A DNA stretch of 64,000 nucleotides from positions 1-64,000 of the forward strand of contig JAFWKQ010000115.1 in NCBI GenBank assembly GCA_017545665.1, in the 5' to 3' direction. Every line of letters begins with the position of its first letter. Position 1 is the first letter of the stretch. The stretch comes from Atopobiaceae bacterium. GTDB lineage: Bacteria; Actinomycetota; Coriobacteriia; Coriobacteriales; Atopobiaceae. Of the stretch, positions 8,317-44,009 are shown in pieces. The translations under genes were made by a program, and so were the position numbers. The notes below the pieces were generated by a model. The model was given only the letters and a program-made list of their open reading frames with translations, was not told where the DNA came from and searched no databases.

Positions 8317-9408
8317 GTGATTCGTTTGTTGGACAGGAACGACGTGGCGGCACGTGAGCGTACGCGGCAGGTTATGGTGGGTAACGTGGCGGTGGGCGGA
8401 GGTGCGCCCGTAAGCGTGCAGTCCATGTGTACGACCAAGACATCCGACCCAATGCAGACGCTGGAACAGATCGGGCGCCTTGCGCAGGCTGGGTGCGAGA
8501 TCGTGCGCGTTGCGGTACCCAACGCCGATGCGTTGGATGGTTTTGAGCGCATTTGCGACGCGTCCCCGCTGCCGGTCGTTGCCGACATCCACTTTGACCA
8601 TGAGCTGGCCATCGCGTCGGCGCGTCGTGGTGCCGCCGGCTTACGTGTGAACCCTGGAAACATCGGGTCGTTTGAGCGCGTGGATGCCGTAATAGACGCC
8701 GCTGGGGAATGTGACATACCCATCCGCATTGGCGTCAATGCGGGTTCCCTTGACAAGGACGTGGACGCACGAACGGACCTTACCCTTCCGCAAAAGCTCG
8801 TGGAGAGCTGTGCCGCCTTCGTGGCACACTTTGAGGAGCGCGGCTTTGCAAACATCGTTCTTTCCGCCAAGGCGCATTCGGTTCCAGTTACCGTTCAGAC
8901 GTATAGGATGCTCTCGGAAGGTCTGCCAGAATACCCGCTTCATGTGGGCGTAACCGAGGCGGGCACGCTCAGACAAGGGACCGTGAAGAATTGCGTTGCC
9001 GTGGGTACGCTCTTGGAGGCAGGCATAGGCGATACCATGCGTCTCTCCCTCACGGCTGACCCCGTGGAGGAGGTCGACGTTGCATGGGAGCTTTTGTCGG
9101 CACTTGGCATGCGAAGGTTGCGCCCCGAGTTGGTGAGCTGCCCGACGTGCGGACGCACCCAAGTAAACCTCATTGGCATGGCCGAGGAGGTGGAGCGACG
9201 CCTGCGTGACGTGCGCGCTCCCATAAGCGTGGCCGTCATGGGGTGCGTGGTAAACGGCCCAGGCGAGGCTCGCGACGCAGATATTGGCATTGCCTGCGGC
9301 AAGGGGAGTGGCCTGATCTTCGTGGACGGCAAGCCCTTGCGCAAAGTTGCCGAGGCCGATTTGGTGGATGAGCTCTTTTTGGAGATCGAGCGCAGGTTTG
9401 GCGTATAG
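8317..9408 (+). CDS. ispG: 4-hydroxy-3-methylbut-2-enyl-diphosphate synthase
   Basis: This 363-residue iron-sulfur enzyme converts MEcPP to HMBPP, the penultimate MEP-pathway step. The N-terminal TIM-barrel begins with VMVGNVAVGGGAPVSVQSM. The [4Fe-4S] ligands Cys275, Cys278 and Cys310 (in CPTCG and GCVVNGPGEA) are intact. The GTG start abuts the rseP stop without a gap and without a strong ribosome site, so it probably depends on translation of rseP. No terminator is obvious after the gene. Confidence 0.95.
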   Translation: MIRLLDRNDVAARERTRQVMVGNVAVGGGAPVSVQSMCTTKTSDPMQTLEQIGRLAQAGCEIVRVAVPNADALDGFERICDASPLPVVADIHFDHELAIASARRGAAGLRVNPGNIGSFERVDAVIDAAGECDIPIRIGVNAGSLDKDVDARTDLTLPQKLVESCAAFVAHFEERGFANIVLSAKAHSVPVTVQTYRMLSEGLPEYPLHVGVTEAGTLRQGTVKNCVAVGTLLEAGIGDTMRLSLTADPVEEVDVAWELLSALGMRRLRPELVSCPTCGRTQVNLIGMAEEVERRLRDVRAPISVAVMGCVVNGPGEARDADIGIACGKGSGLIFVDGKPLRKVAEADLVDELFLEIERRFGV

Positions 9409-9575
9409 TGGCGTGATTTCTTAGGCCTGTTCATTTGGCACATGAATAAACGCATTGCTTGTTTTTTGGCTTGCTTCAAACATTGTGATTATAGGGTATT
9501 TGTCGCCAAGAACGATATGCATTGTTGTCGCTTGGGTAGCCTACACTTGGATGCAGCCATCTTGCTTGGAGTGAA

Positions 9576-37812: not shown

Positions 37813-38655
37813 ATGGCGCGCATTGTGGTTGCGCAGGAGGCCGGAGCCTGCTTTGGTGTGGAGCGTGCGCTTGGGATGGTACGCAACGCGGCACGGGAGG
37901 CAACTGCTCCCGTGCACACGCTCGGTCCTCTCATCCACAATCCCCGCGTGGTGGCTCAGCTCGCTGCCGATGGGGTTGGCGTGGTGGAGGATTCCTCGGA
38001 AGTGCCTGCGGGTGACGTCCTATTCATGCGAACTCACGGCGTGGCGCCACACGTGGAGGAGCGTGCGCGCGAGCTTGGACTGCAGGTGATTGATGCCACG
38101 TGTCCCTTCGTGAAGAAGGTGCATGTGGCAGCCGAGCGACTGGAGCGCGAGGGTTACCAGGTAATCGTGGTGGGGGAGGCCGGGCATCCCGAGGTCGAGG
38201 GCACCGTGGGCCATGCTCCTGGCGCTCTGGTGGTTGGCTGTGTTGCCGATTTGGATGGCGTGAACATCGCACGCCGTGTGGGACTGGTGGTGCAAACGAC
38301 GCTCGCGCAGGACACCCTGCGCGAGGTGGTGGCGGCGCTCATTGGGCGTTGCGACGAATTGCGCGTAATGGATACCATCTGCGATGCCACGAGCAAGCGC
38401 CAGGAAGCAGCGGCAGAGCTCGCGCGGCGCGCGGACGTTATGGTGGTCATAGGCGGTCGCAATTCCGCGAACACCACGCATCTTGCACAGATTTGCGCGG
38501 CCGCATGCAAGAGAACCCACCACATTGAGCTGCCCGAGGAGCTGGATGCCACGTGGTTCGAGGGAGCGGAGCTCGTGGGCATCACTGCCGGTGCATCCAC
38601 TCCCGCCGAGCAGATCGACGAGGTCCGTGTGCGCATTGAGCGGTTGTTGCCCTAA
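37813..38655 (+). CDS. ispH: 4-hydroxy-3-methylbut-2-enyl diphosphate reductase
   Basis: This 280-residue iron-sulfur enzyme makes IPP and DMAPP from HMBPP, the last MEP-pathway step. Cluster ligands Cys13 (GACFGV), Cys97 (DATCPFV) and Cys190 (TICDATSKRQ) are intact, as is the SANTTHL active-site loop (the common form is SSNS/SANT). It starts two bases after the cmk-plsC fusion. Together with dxr and ispG, it shows that the host uses the MEP pathway. Confidence 0.95.
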   Translation: MARIVVAQEAGACFGVERALGMVRNAAREATAPVHTLGPLIHNPRVVAQLAADGVGVVEDSSEVPAGDVLFMRTHGVAPHVEERARELGLQVIDATCPFVKKVHVAAERLEREGYQVIVVGEAGHPEVEGTVGHAPGALVVGCVADLDGVNIARRVGLVVQTTLAQDTLREVVAALIGRCDELRVMDTICDATSKRQEAAAELARRADVMVVIGGRNSANTTHLAQICAAACKRTHHIELPEELDATWFEGAELVGITAGASTPAEQIDEVRVRIERLLP

Positions 38656-38730
38656 CTTGGGGCCTGTGCCTAATAACATCAGACAATGGGGAGTATCCCC
38701 TTTGCCTGTACCCTTTGCCTGTCGCCTGCC
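38654..38730. repeat. Composite of dispersed hairpin units after ispH
   Basis: CTAACTTGGGGCCTGTGCC is a half of the CCCCAAGTT family and is followed by the unit CAGACAATGGGGAGTATCCCCTTTGCCTG (38,680-38,708; written here only as a location of two arms around AGTAT). A further partial CTTTGCCTG copy follows. No gene is seen up to 38,855. Confidence 0.65.
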
Positions 38731-38855
38731 TAGCCAAAAGTTACGTTCATCCTTTTCTATTTCATATTTTACGTCTCGGGCAAATGCGTTTACAAAGCCT
38801 GGCATAGGATGCTGAAAGTCAGTTTAGGTGTAGTAGCCTGAAGGAAGGATGAAAG

Positions 38856-39065
38856 ATGAAAAAGAAGGTATTGGCGTTCTTCATGGCACTCGCGATGTCG
38901 TTCGCGTTTGTCGCTCCCGCCTATGCTGCCGGACTCAACTCAAACGAACAAAACCTGCTAAAAGAGTTCAAAGCAGAGATGGATAAGTGGCCCTTGGACG
39001 ACGATCACAAGAATCAGTACTACGGCGAGGCGGAGAGCGCCCTTAACTGGAAAGGCTACAAATAG
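38856..39065 (+). CDS. Small secreted protein of unknown function
   Basis: This 69-residue protein begins with a clear Sec signal peptide (basic start, hydrophobic core to about residue 22, cleavage after AYA-A). The mature part is about 45 residues, hydrophilic, without cysteines, and ends in a basic Tyr-Lys. GGAAGGATGAAAG precedes the ATG. No family is recognised. It is AT-richer than the ispH side and lies beside the accessory patch. Confidence 0.65.
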   Translation: MKKKVLAFFMALAMSFAFVAPAYAAGLNSNEQNLLKEFKAEMDKWPLDDDHKNQYYGEAESALNWKGYK

Positions 39066-39115
39066 ATGGGACAGTTTGAAGAGGGACTGAGGAACAGGAG
39101 AAAGGAAGTCCCGGA

Positions 39116-39280
39116 ATGGCAGACCCCAGGCACCCAAGGAAGTTCAGCGAGGAGTCCGAGCGGCAGATCGTCCAGCTCTATGCCAACGGCAAGTCGGCCG
39201 GCGGCATAGGTCGTAAAGTTGGTGTAAGCGAAAGTCCTGCGCGAGCAACACCGTTTGAACGGGTTGTGGCCACCGCCTAG
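39116..39280 (+). pseudogene. Truncated IS3-family orfA (transposase helix-turn-helix) remnant
   Basis: An ATG preceded by AGGAGAAAGGAAG opens a frame whose start (RKFSEESERQIVQLYANGKS then GGIGRKVGVS) resembles the N-terminal helix-turn-helix of IS3-type OrfA proteins. After about 40 residues homology ends and the frame stops at 39,278-39,280, inside the repeat that starts at 39,218. The rest of orfA and all of orfB are missing. Confidence 0.6.
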
Positions 39281-39312
39281 AATCTGAAATCACCACAAAG
39301 TCAGGTTCTAGA
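39218..39312 (+). repeat. Partial copy of a 142-bp terminal-inverted-repeat element
   Basis: It begins GTTGGTGTAAGCGAAAGTCC and includes GCCTAGAATCTGA (39,275-39,287), matching the element at 41,598 closely for about 75 bases. It keeps a degraded inner palindrome (TCAGGTTCTAG, 39,301-39,311) but lacks the right terminus. Confidence 0.75.
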
Positions 39313-39331
39313 GAAAGGCAGTGACCGCAGC

Positions 39332-39547
39332 ATGGACAACAGCATAGAAGATGCGAGGGCGGCCGACGTCGCCGTGGAGCTGGCAACGGCGCCGCGCTTC
39401 GAGGACGACACCGTCAACTTGCAGGAGCTCATCCGCCACCTCTCCGATGACTTGTCGTGCCTGTCTATAAGCCCCGCTCGTAGCAAGCTCTCCCGTGCCG
39501 CCCGTGCTGATGCTCCTTTGTTGTCCTGGGAGAGCCTTCTGAAATAA
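39332..39547 (+). CDS. Short open frame of unknown function
   Basis: This 71-residue frame starts at an ATG with only a weak purine stretch upstream. It is rich in Ala, Asp and Leu, has no membrane helix or signal peptide, and resembles nothing I know. It lies between transposon remnants and may be a fragment of a larger gene. The following 286 bases (39,548-39,833) hold a possible -10 (TACACTT, about 39,796) and no gene. Confidence 0.25.
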   Translation: MDNSIEDARAADVAVELATAPRFEDDTVNLQELIRHLSDDLSCLSISPARSKLSRAARADAPLLSWESLLK

Positions 39548-39833
39548 CTCCTCCGTTCTTGTCGGTGACTGCCGACGCCGGCCTCGTAAGTGCTGGCGCC
39601 CACCCGAGCATTGTCGCAGCTACGTGCGCAAAACGCACACTTCGGCGTTGAACATGCTCAACATACCCATGGCATATGACACAAGTAGGACGAGCGGGCT
39701 GCATATCGCGCGTCGGCATACTGCGTAGGGTGGACGCAGGGTACGGCTCCCCGGCTCATGGCTCGGCGGCGAGCCGCGGCATGCGGGGTGCGTGCTACAC
39801 TTGGTGCAAGGAGCGCAGGAAAAGAGGGAGAGA

Positions 39834-41528
39834 ATGGCACGCACGATCAGCATAGGGGCGCAGGGGTTCGAGGACCTGCGAACGAACGGGTACTTCTACG
39901 TGGACAAGACCGGCTTCGTGCGGGACTGGTGGCGCTCCGGGGACGTGGTCACCCTCATATGCCGCCCCCGGCGCTTCGGCAAGACGCTCAACCTGGACAC
40001 GGTTCGCTGCTTCCTGTCCACCGAGCTCGCCGGCCGCGGTGGGGAGCTGTTCGGCGGTCTGGAGGTCTGGGCCGACCCCGGCATGCGGGAACTCCAGGGC
40101 ACCGTGCCGGTGGTGTCGCTCAGCTTCGCGCGCGTGAAGGGCACCACCTACGCCGAGACGCTCGCGGGCCTGAGGCGCGTGATCCGCGTGGCGGTGGAGG
40201 CCCACGGCTACCTGCGGGAGTCGGACGCCCTCACCGACGGCGACCGCGCCTTCCTCGACCGCGTGTCGGACGACATGCCCGCCGAGGTGGCGGTCGACGC
40301 GATCAACCAGCTCTGCGCCATGCTGCGCCGCCACCACGGCACGGCCCCGGTCGTGCTGCTCGACGAGTACGACGCGCCGATGGAGGTCGCCTGGACCCGC
40401 GGCTACTGGGACGAGGCCTCCGCCTTCATGCGCCAGCTCATGAACGCCACCTTCAAGACCAACCCCGCGATGGGGCGCGGCCTTATCACCGGCGTGACGC
40501 GCGTGAGCCGCGAGTCGATCTTCTCGGACCTCAACAACCTGGTGGTCGTGACGACGTCGATCCCGCTCTACCAGGAGTGCTTCGGCTTCACCCAGGCCGA
40601 GGTGGACGCGGCGCTCGACGAGTACGGCCTGGCCGACAGGCGCGACGACGTGCGCCGCTGGTACGACGGGTTCGTGTTCGACGGACACGCGCACATCTAC
40701 AACCCCTGGTCGCTCACCCAGTTCCTGCAGTTCGGCGAGTTCCGGGCCTACTGGGCCAACACGAGCGGCAACGGTCTGGTGAGCGAGGTCGTGCGCCGCG
40801 GCGACCGGCGCCTCAAGGCCGACTTCGAGGTGCTGCTCTCGGGCGGCGAGGTGGAGAAGGTCATCGACGAGCAGGTTGTGTTCTCCGAGCTCGCCACGGT
40901 GCCCAACGCCGTGTGGGCGCTGCTGCTGGCAGCCGGCTACGTCACGAGCCCGGGGTCGGTGCCGAAGTTCGTGGAGACCACGCCGCGCCCCCTGCGGCTC
41001 ACCAACAAGGAGGTGCGCCTCGCCTTCGACCGCATGGTGCAGGGCTGGTTCGACGAGGCAGCGTCTGACTACGGGGAGTTCGCCGACGCCCTGCTCGCCG
41101 GCGACGCCGAGGCGATGGGAGACTACCTCTCCGAGGTGGCGCTCGCCTGCGCGTCGTCGTTCGACTCCGCGACGCGGCCCTCCGAGCGCTCCGAACCAGA
41201 GCGTTTCTACCACGGCCTGGTGCTGGGGCTGCTCGTGTCCCTGCGGGGCCGCTACTCGGTGGAGTCCAACCGCGAGAGCGGTTACGGCCGCTACGACGTG
41301 GCGCTCGTGCCCACGGACGGCGCTCAAGGCGCCGACCCCGCCGTCGTCATCGAGTTCAAGGTGTTCGACCCGTGCCGCGAGGAGACCCTGGCCGACACCG
41401 TCGCCCGCGCCCGCGCCCAGATCGAGGAGCGCGCCTACGCCGCGGGCCTCGCCGTACGCGGCATCGCGCCGGAGCGCATCCGCACCTACGGCATCGCCTT
41501 CCGCGGCAAGGAGGTCCTCGTCGGCTGA
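39834..41528 (+). CDS. AAA-ATPase-like protein with C-terminal PD-(D/E)XK nuclease-like domain
   Basis: This 564-residue protein matches the AAA-ATPase_like (PF09820) plus PDDEXK_9 (PF08011) architecture. The N-terminus has the typical YFYVDKT start, a Walker A-like RPRRFGKTL (Lys50) and Walker B LLDEYD (Asp177, Glu178). The C-terminal nuclease-like core has Asp488 (GRYDV) and EFK (507-509). The family is often multi-copy in gut anaerobes and its role is unknown; nuclease activity is not proven. The gene is much more GC-rich at third positions than its neighbours and is bracketed by related repeats, so acquisition is likely. The ATG at 39,834 follows AGGGAGA. Confidence 0.85.
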   Translation: MARTISIGAQGFEDLRTNGYFYVDKTGFVRDWWRSGDVVTLICRPRRFGKTLNLDTVRCFLSTELAGRGGELFGGLEVWADPGMRELQGTVPVVSLSFARVKGTTYAETLAGLRRVIRVAVEAHGYLRESDALTDGDRAFLDRVSDDMPAEVAVDAINQLCAMLRRHHGTAPVVLLDEYDAPMEVAWTRGYWDEASAFMRQLMNATFKTNPAMGRGLITGVTRVSRESIFSDLNNLVVVTTSIPLYQECFGFTQAEVDAALDEYGLADRRDDVRRWYDGFVFDGHAHIYNPWSLTQFLQFGEFRAYWANTSGNGLVSEVVRRGDRRLKADFEVLLSGGEVEKVIDEQVVFSELATVPNAVWALLLAAGYVTSPGSVPKFVETTPRPLRLTNKEVRLAFDRMVQGWFDEAASDYGEFADALLAGDAEAMGDYLSEVALACASSFDSATRPSERSEPERFYHGLVLGLLVSLRGRYSVESNRESGYGRYDVALVPTDGAQGADPAVVIEFKVFDPCREETLADTVARARAQIEERAYAAGLAVRGIAPERIRTYGIAFRGKEVLVG

Positions 41529-41597
41529 CGCCGGTGGGGCACTCTTCCAAGAAAGGTGCCCCATTGGCTCGCTCACGAGCCAGCTCGTGTCGCAAAA

Positions 41598-41739
41598 GTT
41601 GGTGTAAGCGAAAGTCCTGCGCAGGCACCGCCGTTTTAAAGGGGTGCGGCCACCGCCTAGAATCTGACTTGTCGCGATTTCAGATTCTAGGCAATGGCCG
41701 TTTCTCCTACCTAGGGGCCAGTCCCGGGCTTACACCAAC
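41598..41739. mobile_element. 142-bp MITE-like element with 12-bp terminal inverted repeats
   Basis: The termini GTTGGTGTAAGC (41,598-41,609) and GCTTACACCAAC (41,728-41,739) are perfect inverted repeats. An inner perfect palindrome GCCTAGAATCTGA/TCAGATTCTAGGC lies at 41,655-41,692. It has no coding capacity. The left 75 bases match 39,218-39,312. Which transposase could move it is unknown; the neighbouring IS3-type remnant is one candidate. Confidence 0.7.
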
Positions 41740-41749
41740 ATTCCCGACG

Positions 41750-41914
41750 CGATCGCTAACTGCTGCCTTTAACCGAATTGGATACGGCAGCATAAGGAAC
41801 GTATTGGAGTTTTATTTGGCGGGTGTCGTAGGTATTGCTGAAAGCAACACCGGCATCACCGACGAAGAGATCGTTGATTTGCTTTGCCTGAGTGTGGGCC
41901 ATACTGCGAGTTGA
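41750..41914 (+). pseudogene. Possible C-terminal remnant of a TetR-type regulator
   Basis: The stretch ending at TGA 41,912-41,914 reads FNRIGYGSIRNVLEFYLAG and then VVGI with a Glu/Asp-rich helix, a pattern like TetR C-terminal domains. The DNA-binding half is absent; immediately upstream is the MITE-like element. It may be a decayed gene cut by the insertion. The similarity is weak and based on residue pattern only. Confidence 0.3.
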
Positions 41915-41928
41915 TATTCACAATAGCA

Positions 41929-43851
41929 TCAGACAATGGGGAGTATTCCCTTTGCCTGGTCCTTGCCGTATGTGCGCACGAACTCGTCCATGGGAAGGGG
42001 TCGCGAGAACAGGTACCCTTGCAGGAGGTCGGCCCCAATGCCGCGGAGGTCCTCGGCCATCTCCTCAGTTTCGATGCCCTCTGCCGTTATGGTGTAGCCA
42101 ATGTCCTTGAGTCCGCGCACAACCACGGGAATCAGGTTTCCCTTACCGCTGCTGTAGCTGCGCACGAGCGACATGTCCAACTTAATGTTGGCAAATGGAT
42201 AGTCCGAAAGGCGAACGAGGTTGGAATAGCCCGTTCCATAGTCGTCGAGAGAAAACTTAAAGCCCATGTTTTGCAGCTGAACGATTTGGTCCTTTACGAG
42301 GTCGTAGTCGATGATGCTCTGCTCGGTAACCTCAAGATGAATCACGTCTGGCGATACGCTATATTGCTCCAGGACGCTCCCAAATCGCTCGGCGATGTCG
42401 TGTTGGACGCACTGAAGAGGCGAGAGGTTGATGTTGATCCACTGCAATCCGAGCTCTTCAATATCGTGTGTGGCAATAAATGCGCAGACCTTGCTGAACA
42501 CCTGTGCGCCTAGCTCATCGATAAGCCCGACGTGCTCGGCAATGGGAATGAACAGCGTCGGCGAAACAACGCAACCGTGCTCGTCGCGTATGCGCGCCAA
42601 CGCCTCGGCCCCAACCAGCTTGCGGGAGTCGCTCTGCACTATTGGCTGCAGAAAGACCTCGACCTCGTTGCGTTCGAGCACGCCCTCGAGCGTTCTGAGC
42701 GTCGCAACCTGCTCATACACCTCACTGATGCTGAGGGTGTCCTTGCTCGAGTCGGACGCCATCGATATGTCGCGCTCAGCGCTCTCGAGCGAAAGCGTGA
42801 GGGTGTTGATGATTTTGTCTGCCGTGCTGAGACCCGAGCTTTCGTCGATGTTCACAAAGAGCACGCTGAGGTTGAGCGCGCTCTCCCCGGTTTCCCAGGG
42901 CTGTTGGAAGCGTTGGCGGATCTGAACGTGAACGTCCTCCCAGTCCACGTTGTCGTCTCCTGTCATTGCAAACTGACCGGATCCCATATAGAAGAGGACG
43001 TTTTTGGGAAAGGTATGCGTAATCCAGCTGCTGATGTCACCAACGGTATTGTCGATGCGTTCGCCACCAACAATGACTCGCTCTTGTTGGTAGTTCTTTA
43101 TAACCATGCCCATGAGGTGCATGCCGCCCTCCTCAAGGGCCTCGGAAAGCACGAGCCTGAGTCCGCGCTTGTTGTATGCGATTCGTCGCTGGTCGATAAA
43201 CAGATGGGGGTTCATAAACCCAAAGAAGATGATGGTAATGGCTATGGTGCAAAAGGTGTCCATTACCAGCACCTTGGGAAAGAGGAGCCGCATGCCATAT
43301 CCTGCCAGCAGCGCGGCGTTATAGGCAATAGCCACGTTTCGCTCGTAGGGGCGCAAGCCTTGGCCGCGGATTATGAGAGCGAGGATCGAAAGGCCAACGT
43401 AGAGGAACGAGCACACATAAAGCATGTTGTAGAGTGGCCCGCTGTGATACCCCGCGTCGTCGATGCTAAAGATCGCGCCCGTAAAAACGCTCGTCACACA
43501 AAGTGCCTGCGCCAGCCAAAAGGGAATGGAGAGGATGGCCTCAAGGCCACGTCGAGCCCCAGAGGCCACGTGCACCACCCGTAGGCAGAAGCGATAGAAG
43601 CAGTACGACCTGGCGAAGTAGAACATGAAGTAGAGACAGTTGGCCACATACAAAGCGATCTGGCTCACGCTTTGGTAGTTTTGGCATGCCAATGTGGAGA
43701 CGATGTCTGTAACCATGACGCACAGCTCGATTACCAGGAGAGCCTAGAAGGTCCTGTTTGCGCGTATAGGCAAATGAGGCTCGCTAAAGTAGAAGCCCAG
43801 TATGGTTAGCAGCAAAAGCGCACAGGGTGTCTGAAAGCTAAAATCCCACAT
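41929..43851 (-). pseudogene. Membrane EAL phosphodiesterase gene interrupted by an in-frame TAG
   Basis: From ATG 43,851, preceded by GGAGGGGG, the frame encodes 35 residues ending in RANRTF, then TAG (43,746-43,744). The same frame then continues without a break for 604 codons to 41,929. The downstream part has about six more membrane helices, a GGDEF-like domain degraded to GSGQF, and an EAL domain with all catalytic residues (EAL at 371 counting from Met 43,716, EVTEQ, DDYGTGYSN, IKLDM, AEGIETEE). The first internal ATG (43,716) has no ribosome site. Intact, it would hydrolyse c-di-GMP at the membrane. A TTG-to-TAG change is the simplest origin. Confidence 0.75.
41930..41958. repeat. GGGGA-tip hairpin unit overlapping the 3' end of the EAL gene
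   Basis: This is the same unit as at 38,680-38,708, differing at one base in the tip. It encodes the last residues (AKGILPIV) and stop of the EAL protein on the minus strand, so the repeat has become coding sequence. Confidence 0.75.
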
Positions 43852-44009
43852 AATCCCCCTCCTTTCCGCAAATATAATCATAGCATGATACTCGTGCGCA
43901 GAGGCAGGCTGCACTTTTATCTGCTCCATATGTGCGTATGGAGTACTTCTCGGTGAGCGTGCTAAAATCTGGGGCTGAACGTTTGTTTTTGTCGACGAAA
44001 GGTGGCCAT

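Follow-up and report, generated by a model that had tools for sequence, protein, structure and literature searches.

The locus analysed here raises two questions: whether a GC-rich gene lying between two similar repeats was carried there by them, and what its protein might do. It is located in a stretch of 64,000 nucleotides (the window) from an Atopobiaceae genome, designated G000. A preliminary description, made from the letters alone, had recognised an AAA-ATPase/PDDEXK gene with direct repeats of about 75 bases on each side and had read the segment as a mobilised cargo.

An intact DUF1703-family gene

39834..41528, + strand: intact DUF1703-family gene, 564 aa, AAA-ATPase_like (PF09820) and PDDEXK_9 (PF08011), assigned by Pfam matches above cut-off and by motifs

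Both Pfam matches exceeded the curated cut-offs, PF09820 with 123.5 bits over residues 7-230 and PF08011 with 56.2 bits over residues 455-562, which bears out the first assignment of the gene. The order of the two domains, PF09820 and then PF08011, is that of the DUF1703 family, and the protein carries the motifs given for the family in the part of PMC1913061 that was available: Walker A RPRRFGK(T/S), here RPRRFGKT at residues 44-51; Walker B DEYD, at residues 177-180; and the D...ExK pattern of PD-(D/E)XK nucleases, with D488 and E507-F-K509 as the predicted nuclease residues. The catalytic residues are present in the window copy and conserved across an alignment of 25 sequences. The window gene belongs to a known and ordinary family, DUF1703. 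No useful match to its protein was obtained in PHROGs (best E 0.4), NCBIfam (E 0.07) or, by sequence, the PDB (E 0.17). Relatives were present in 29 of 50,697 phage records and 57 of 72,556 plasmid records, all below 60% identity, and at seven loci of viral contigs, at 24-49% identity. One copy in another genome of the genus (L034, G010:C57) has an in-frame deletion of the whole Walker A segment with the rest intact, and is possibly an ATPase-less variant of the family.

The third-position GC of the gene is indeed far above that of its neighbours, at 0.958, whereas the 11 further genes of the window that were measured range from 0.692 to 0.791. Among 34 family copies the value spans 0.57-0.97. 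Since it often exceeds 0.9 in these copies, with core genes in the same genomes at 0.61-0.89, high GC3 is in part characteristic of the clade, and we dropped it as proof of a distant donor.

The repeats as remains of IS256-family elements

39210..39447, + strand: left repeat, what remains of the 5' end of a decayed IS256-family element, with truncated inverted repeat, leader and the first ~41 transposase codons from 39332, by DNA alignment
41583..41754, no strand assigned: right repeat, a 172-bp palindromic MITE in which the left end of an IS256-family element occurs twice, by alignment to sister-genome ISs

The direct repeats at 39215-39287 and 41595-41667 are 73 nt long and 89% identical (E 4.6e-21 in a whole-genome search), much as first reported. 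A search of 16 genus genomes, the own genome included, returned 28 matches, which fall at 17 separate places in eight of the 16, two of these places being in the window and 15 elsewhere. Full-length relatives in sister genomes contain a 400-aa frame matching PF00872 (Transposase_mut, 2.3e-97), and the two window repeats originate from ends of IS256-family insertion sequences of this kind. The left element is 84% identical over 241 bp of DNA alignment to the IS at G014:C125, with the 5' end of the transposase gene at 39332-39447. In the right element, the left half is 90% identical to the left end of the same IS, and the right half, inverted, is likewise 90% identical to the left end of the IS at G004:C183; the right ends of intact sister-genome ISs differ in sequence from the ends of this element. 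Because both halves match left ends, the second one inverted, 41583-41754 is a palindromic two-left-end MITE, in which the inverted repeats of the parent IS are present and the transposase is absent. Thus, of the pair first called related MITE-like repeats, the right one is a MITE, although of 172 bp and itself palindromic and not the 142-bp element described, whereas the left one is incomplete and extends into the 5' portion of a transposase gene of the IS256 family.

Unlike the sister-genome insertion sequences, the window copies have no functional transposase, and G000 contains one partial PF00872 match, outside the window. Insertion of IS256 elements duplicates 8-9 bp of the target; no target duplication was found at the MITE, which is bordered by CACGAGCCA on its 5' side and GCTAACTGC on its 3' side. 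By these alignments, the two repeats are separate derivatives of one IS256 family, so that they resemble brackets but are not the ends of one transposon.

The remnants of other genes said to touch the repeats were not upheld. The supposed IS3-type transposase remnant is a 33-aa frame (39116-39214) with only sub-threshold matches to unrelated Pfam families and no relative in the loci compared, and the possible TetR remnant (41756-41914) matched no Pfam family at E<=5.

A 2.0-kb block shared by two species

39755..41754, + strand: recently transferred block comprising the gene, 79 bp upstream, a terminator-like hairpin and the MITE, by comparison with G006:C39
41529..41582, + strand: spacer with the terminator-like hairpin, from the stop codon to the MITE, read from the sequence

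A stretch of contig C39 of the sister genome G006 (L013/L157) was 97.7% identical over 2001 bp to window 39755-41755, with sharp edges and unrelated flanks. The MITE terminus GATC ends at 41754, and the match at base 41755, past this terminus, is taken to be chance agreement. The aligned parts of two core genes of G000 and G006 are 81.5% (der) and 72.3% (ispH) identical in DNA. In both genomes the block ends on its right precisely at the terminus of the MITE. The right repeat is a self-contained MITE within the block, whereas the left repeat, its tip lost, lies outside. No recognised element end was found at the left edge, and a search of the 16 genus genomes with 39448-39754 gave nothing related at E<=0.001. 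At the outer edges of the block there is no target duplication, and the outside bases differ in both species.

The site of the block in G006 is non-orthologous to the window site, and a check for empty sites, as the preliminary description had proposed, found the block missing reciprocally. The ispH-der interval of G006 holds one 461-aa ORF in place of the block, and G000 contig C29 holds orthologues of the right flank of the G006 site (the hom-thrC-VanZ side) followed by a different gene where the block sits. Because the block is 97.7% alike as against 72-82% for core genes, occupies non-orthologous sites and is absent at the reciprocal sites, it is regarded as mobile. These comparisons indicate that it moved recently between species of the genus and, since the reciprocal sites lack it, that one or both of the two species acquired it recently. 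Thus, the mobility in the original cargo reading is sustained, but not the role of the repeats as transposon ends. In G006:C39 (L157, ~9000-9414) the block adjoins the 3' part of a gene that is cut at the MITE tip and presumably resembles DUF2326.

Possible routes of transfer

Since the right edge coincides with the exact MITE tip in both genomes, it is suggested that an IS256-type transposase acted at the MITE at least once. We infer that the block was moved by ordinary DNA-fragment transfer, and that one or both of the junctions now seen would be the work of an IS256-type transposase at the outer end of the MITE, through a one-ended insertion or an adjacent deletion.

Alternatively, the gene could itself be a selfish mobile unit, copied into target DNA that its PD-(D/E)XK nuclease has cut. 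Cut-and-copy-in by the nuclease has been proposed for other nuclease-transposase families, and the genes in question are multi-copy, non-syntenic and single; paralogues usually resemble each other only from ~45 bp upstream of the start codon to a few bases past the stop codon. However, a promoter together with coding constraint would give the same edge pattern, the G000/G006 block exceeds those limits on both sides, and conserved termini, a target site and a duplication were not found. We consider this explanation improbable.

A little less probable still is a composite or MITE-mobilised cargo, in which two related IS256-type ends moved the gene with transposase supplied in trans. The right edge at the exact MITE terminus would fit, as would G010:C8, where an internally deleted IS has its near tip ~50 bp downstream of the stop codon in a relative with 60% identity. 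However, the left element outside the shared block, the lost tip and the edges free of target duplication are difficult to reconcile with such a vehicle, and in 13 of the 15 non-window places with IS ends no family member is near (some contigs are short, and misses are possible). The other of the two exceptions, G006:C39, is the same block as in the window. The check whether these ends also flank PF09820 genes elsewhere was therefore largely negative: at G014:C31 a family member lies 28 kb from the IS end, and none of the remaining places, on contigs of which some are short, has a family match at E<=1e-30. Paired MITEs as the ends of one element were rejected. The left copy is truncated and the right one a palindromic MITE of two left ends, so that the two complete and properly oriented ends of one IS that a composite transposon would have are absent.

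The gene might also be a non-functional, GC-rich foreign passenger heading to decay, as remnants abound around it and two relatives in G000 (C32, C113) are broken. The frame is nevertheless open with all catalytic motifs present, and the G000/G006 gene pair differs by 20 synonymous and 10 amino-acid changes (pN 0.008, pS 0.047, pN/pS ~0.17). Purifying selection has acted on the gene since the G000/G006 split, and decay is quite unlikely.

The family in the genus

Family matches at E<=1e-30 were found in 14 of the 16 genus genomes and in 23 of the 100 genomes searched overall, with at most 10 per genome within the genus and 12 in one genome of another genus. G001, the nearest relative, has no family member at E<=1e-30 in a genome of 86% completeness. 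Seven PF09820 loci are present in G000, and the copies most closely related to the window gene include the two broken fragments. At one of these (L007, G000:C32; 183-1343 and 1458-1691), what is left of a window-clade gene is its 5' part, and next to it stands an ATP-binding gene that we take to resemble AAA_14-DUF4143.

For comparison of flanks, 34 copies were fetched, 27 of them in the window clade. Both flanks were common to three pairs, G008/G009 twice and G010/G014 once, which belong to two outer clades. Among the 27 copies of the window clade none shares both flanks with another, and one pair (G005/G015) has a common upstream flank only; in addition, the partial copy L053, which is not among the 34, has its upstream flank in common with the window-clade copy at G009:C149. 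Copies of one genome are scattered in the 34-copy tree, in which 15 of 31 inner branches reach the support threshold. By these comparisons the family is multi-copy and mostly non-syntenic in the genus. Other DUF1703-like genes recur as neighbours at six loci in five genomes; every other neighbouring family is found at no more than a pair of loci, and several such pairs are the syntenic ones. The lack of a recurring neighbour family favours a protein acting alone. Several contigs of G014 and G010 (L050, L051, L054, L055) stop within the conserved 5' region of a family member, as though the assembly had been interrupted by nearly identical copies or by variants between strains.

The ispH-der interval

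38856..39065, + strand: small putative secreted-protein gene, cut off at codon 64, by comparison with G001

The window interval between ispH and der (38652-43998) is wholly remodelled compared with other genus genomes. The interval was read for six genomes, of which G006, G013, G010, G005 and G011 have one ORF of 461-572 aa, a gene we assume to be PDZ-like, and G014 has an interval of similar length with the frame listed on the other strand. In none of the six was there a match to the window's EAL gene, to its small gene or to the block. In G012, ispH and der lie 5.2 kb apart on one contig, which has no family match at E<=1e-30. The small gene is 98% identical to its G001 counterpart over 64 residues and then diverges; the G001 copy is full length and is followed by a gene that is presumably sortase-like. 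A second pair of direct repeats, 38672-38708 and 41922-41958, is 37 nt long and 95% identical with a palindromic core, whose pattern has nine copies in the genome versus none in a reversed control. Its right copy supplies the final codons of the EAL-domain gene (41929-43716). These repeats resemble REP-like elements.

Two variable segments

Over the 27 copies, mean pairwise identity was 0.36-0.52 at residues 101-160 and 0.53-0.60 at residues 401-440, compared with 0.66-0.98 at other residues. Among 22 full-length copies, pN/pS was 0.70 and 0.50 in these two segments versus 0.25-0.34 elsewhere, with pS flat at 0.51-0.56 across the gene and near saturation. The raised pN/pS may reflect diversifying selection or, since it stays below 1, relaxed constraint. 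The identity patterns of segments 100-165 and 401-445 correlated only weakly with each other and with most other segments. With 21 copies, the near-duplicate G006 copy having been dropped, none of 500 column shuffles reached such low correlation for seven of the 10 segment pairs, the exceptions being N-mid (33/500), N-C (19/500) and V2-C (43/500). These patterns indicate that the two hypervariable segments are mosaic in the 27-copy clade, with separate histories.

Multi-copy expansion and paralogue recombination, the latter in Cardinium, have already been reported for the DUF1703 family in the portions available of PMC1913061 and PMC6387759. The present case differs in that the expansion is in a rumen Atopobiaceae-like genus, the variation is concentrated in two segments and a recent transfer between species is documented. 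New here are the hypervariable, mosaic segments and the STAND/NLR-like model.

Predicted fold and proposed function

An AlphaFold2 model of the window protein was obtained with pLDDT 89 and pTM 0.86. The best VIA-align matches were the archaeal ATPases PABY2304 (2qen, Z 15.4) and Sso1545 (2fna, Z 15.2), with rmsd 4.3 Å over 307 and 304 residues and 12% identity. CED-4 and plant NLRs came next (Z 12-13), and CED-4, plant NLRs, TnsC and ORC all fall within Z 10-13. The comparison tests residues 1-467 well, and only these, the archaeal alignments covering 3-400. The archaeal STAND-like ATPases are thus the best structural match to the N-terminal ~400 residues, but at low identity and with the nuclease domain of the window protein outside the alignment; in the accessible part of PMC1913061, the N-terminus of DUF1703 was linked to the archaeal ATPase family PF01637 in 2007. 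With the switch ATPases CED-4, plant NLRs and Apaf-1 the window protein shares the fold of ATPase and helical modules (Z 10-13). Unlike them it is without a repeat sensor, the classic C-terminal one of STAND-type proteins being absent, and its effector would be the predicted C-terminal nuclease. These matches to STAND-type proteins (Z 10-15) concern a predicted model, and likeness in fold shows no function. The top Foldseek rows (ORC and a maltose-system complex) were set aside, with rmsd >16 Å. Foldseek also lists the Wolbachia CinB/CidB nucleases at E 0.006-0.07 (cf. PMC12445526, in the part available).

The best PADLOC match, in a library of described defence systems only, was Tin (E 0.017), which is not credible; that no defence model fits well counts against a role in conflict. 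PF09820 is tabulated among the domains in RADAR, PARIS1 and Old-tin in the available text of PMC10952713, and fragments of the family in mite Cardinium were listed among 'MITE candidates' in 2025, according to the excerpt of PMC12039267. Literature searched by the domains of the family, STAND nucleases and PDDEXK phage defence yielded no functional study of DUF1703 proteins, and what the preliminary description remarked about an unknown function in anaerobes applies to the family as a whole.

A conflict switch with nuclease output is suggested by the STAND-like fold, by the occurrence as a lone gene and by the mosaic pattern of the variable patches. Our best guess is that the window protein would be a single-gene sense-and-cut conflict system, working alone and probably directed against phages. 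The N-terminal STAND-like ATPase module would sense a trigger via its variable helical patches, and nucleotide exchange would free the C-terminal PD-(D/E)XK nuclease onto nucleic acid. A secreted nuclease effector on a eukaryotic or bacterial partner, by analogy with midge Cardinium, for which secretion of DUF1703 family proteins was proposed in the part of PMC6387759 available, is very unlikely here, as the N-terminus MARTISIGAQGFEDLR has by eye no evident signal peptide.

Discussion

We lean, with somewhat more confidence than doubt, towards one joint explanation: an intact DUF1703 gene, probably acting as a solo conflict switch, lies in a block with a MITE that was recently transferred, between repeats that are two IS256 derivatives. 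The earlier reading of the repeats as a vehicle is mistaken though understandable, and the recent transfer is well documented; the locus shows that IS debris can mimic a cargo transposon. A bolder reading, to which we give roughly one chance in five, is that the genus holds a freely exchanged repertoire of NLR-like ATPase-nucleases, with the patches at ~101-160 and ~401-440 as recognition surfaces swapped between copies by recombination and with whole genes passing from species to species as 2-kb units. If this were true, the whole population would share a combinatorial immune-receptor pool. The DUF1703 family, defined in 2007, is widespread in anaerobes and symbionts, and an intact, near-identical copy in two species together with a map of residue variability provides concrete material for testing the immune-receptor idea.
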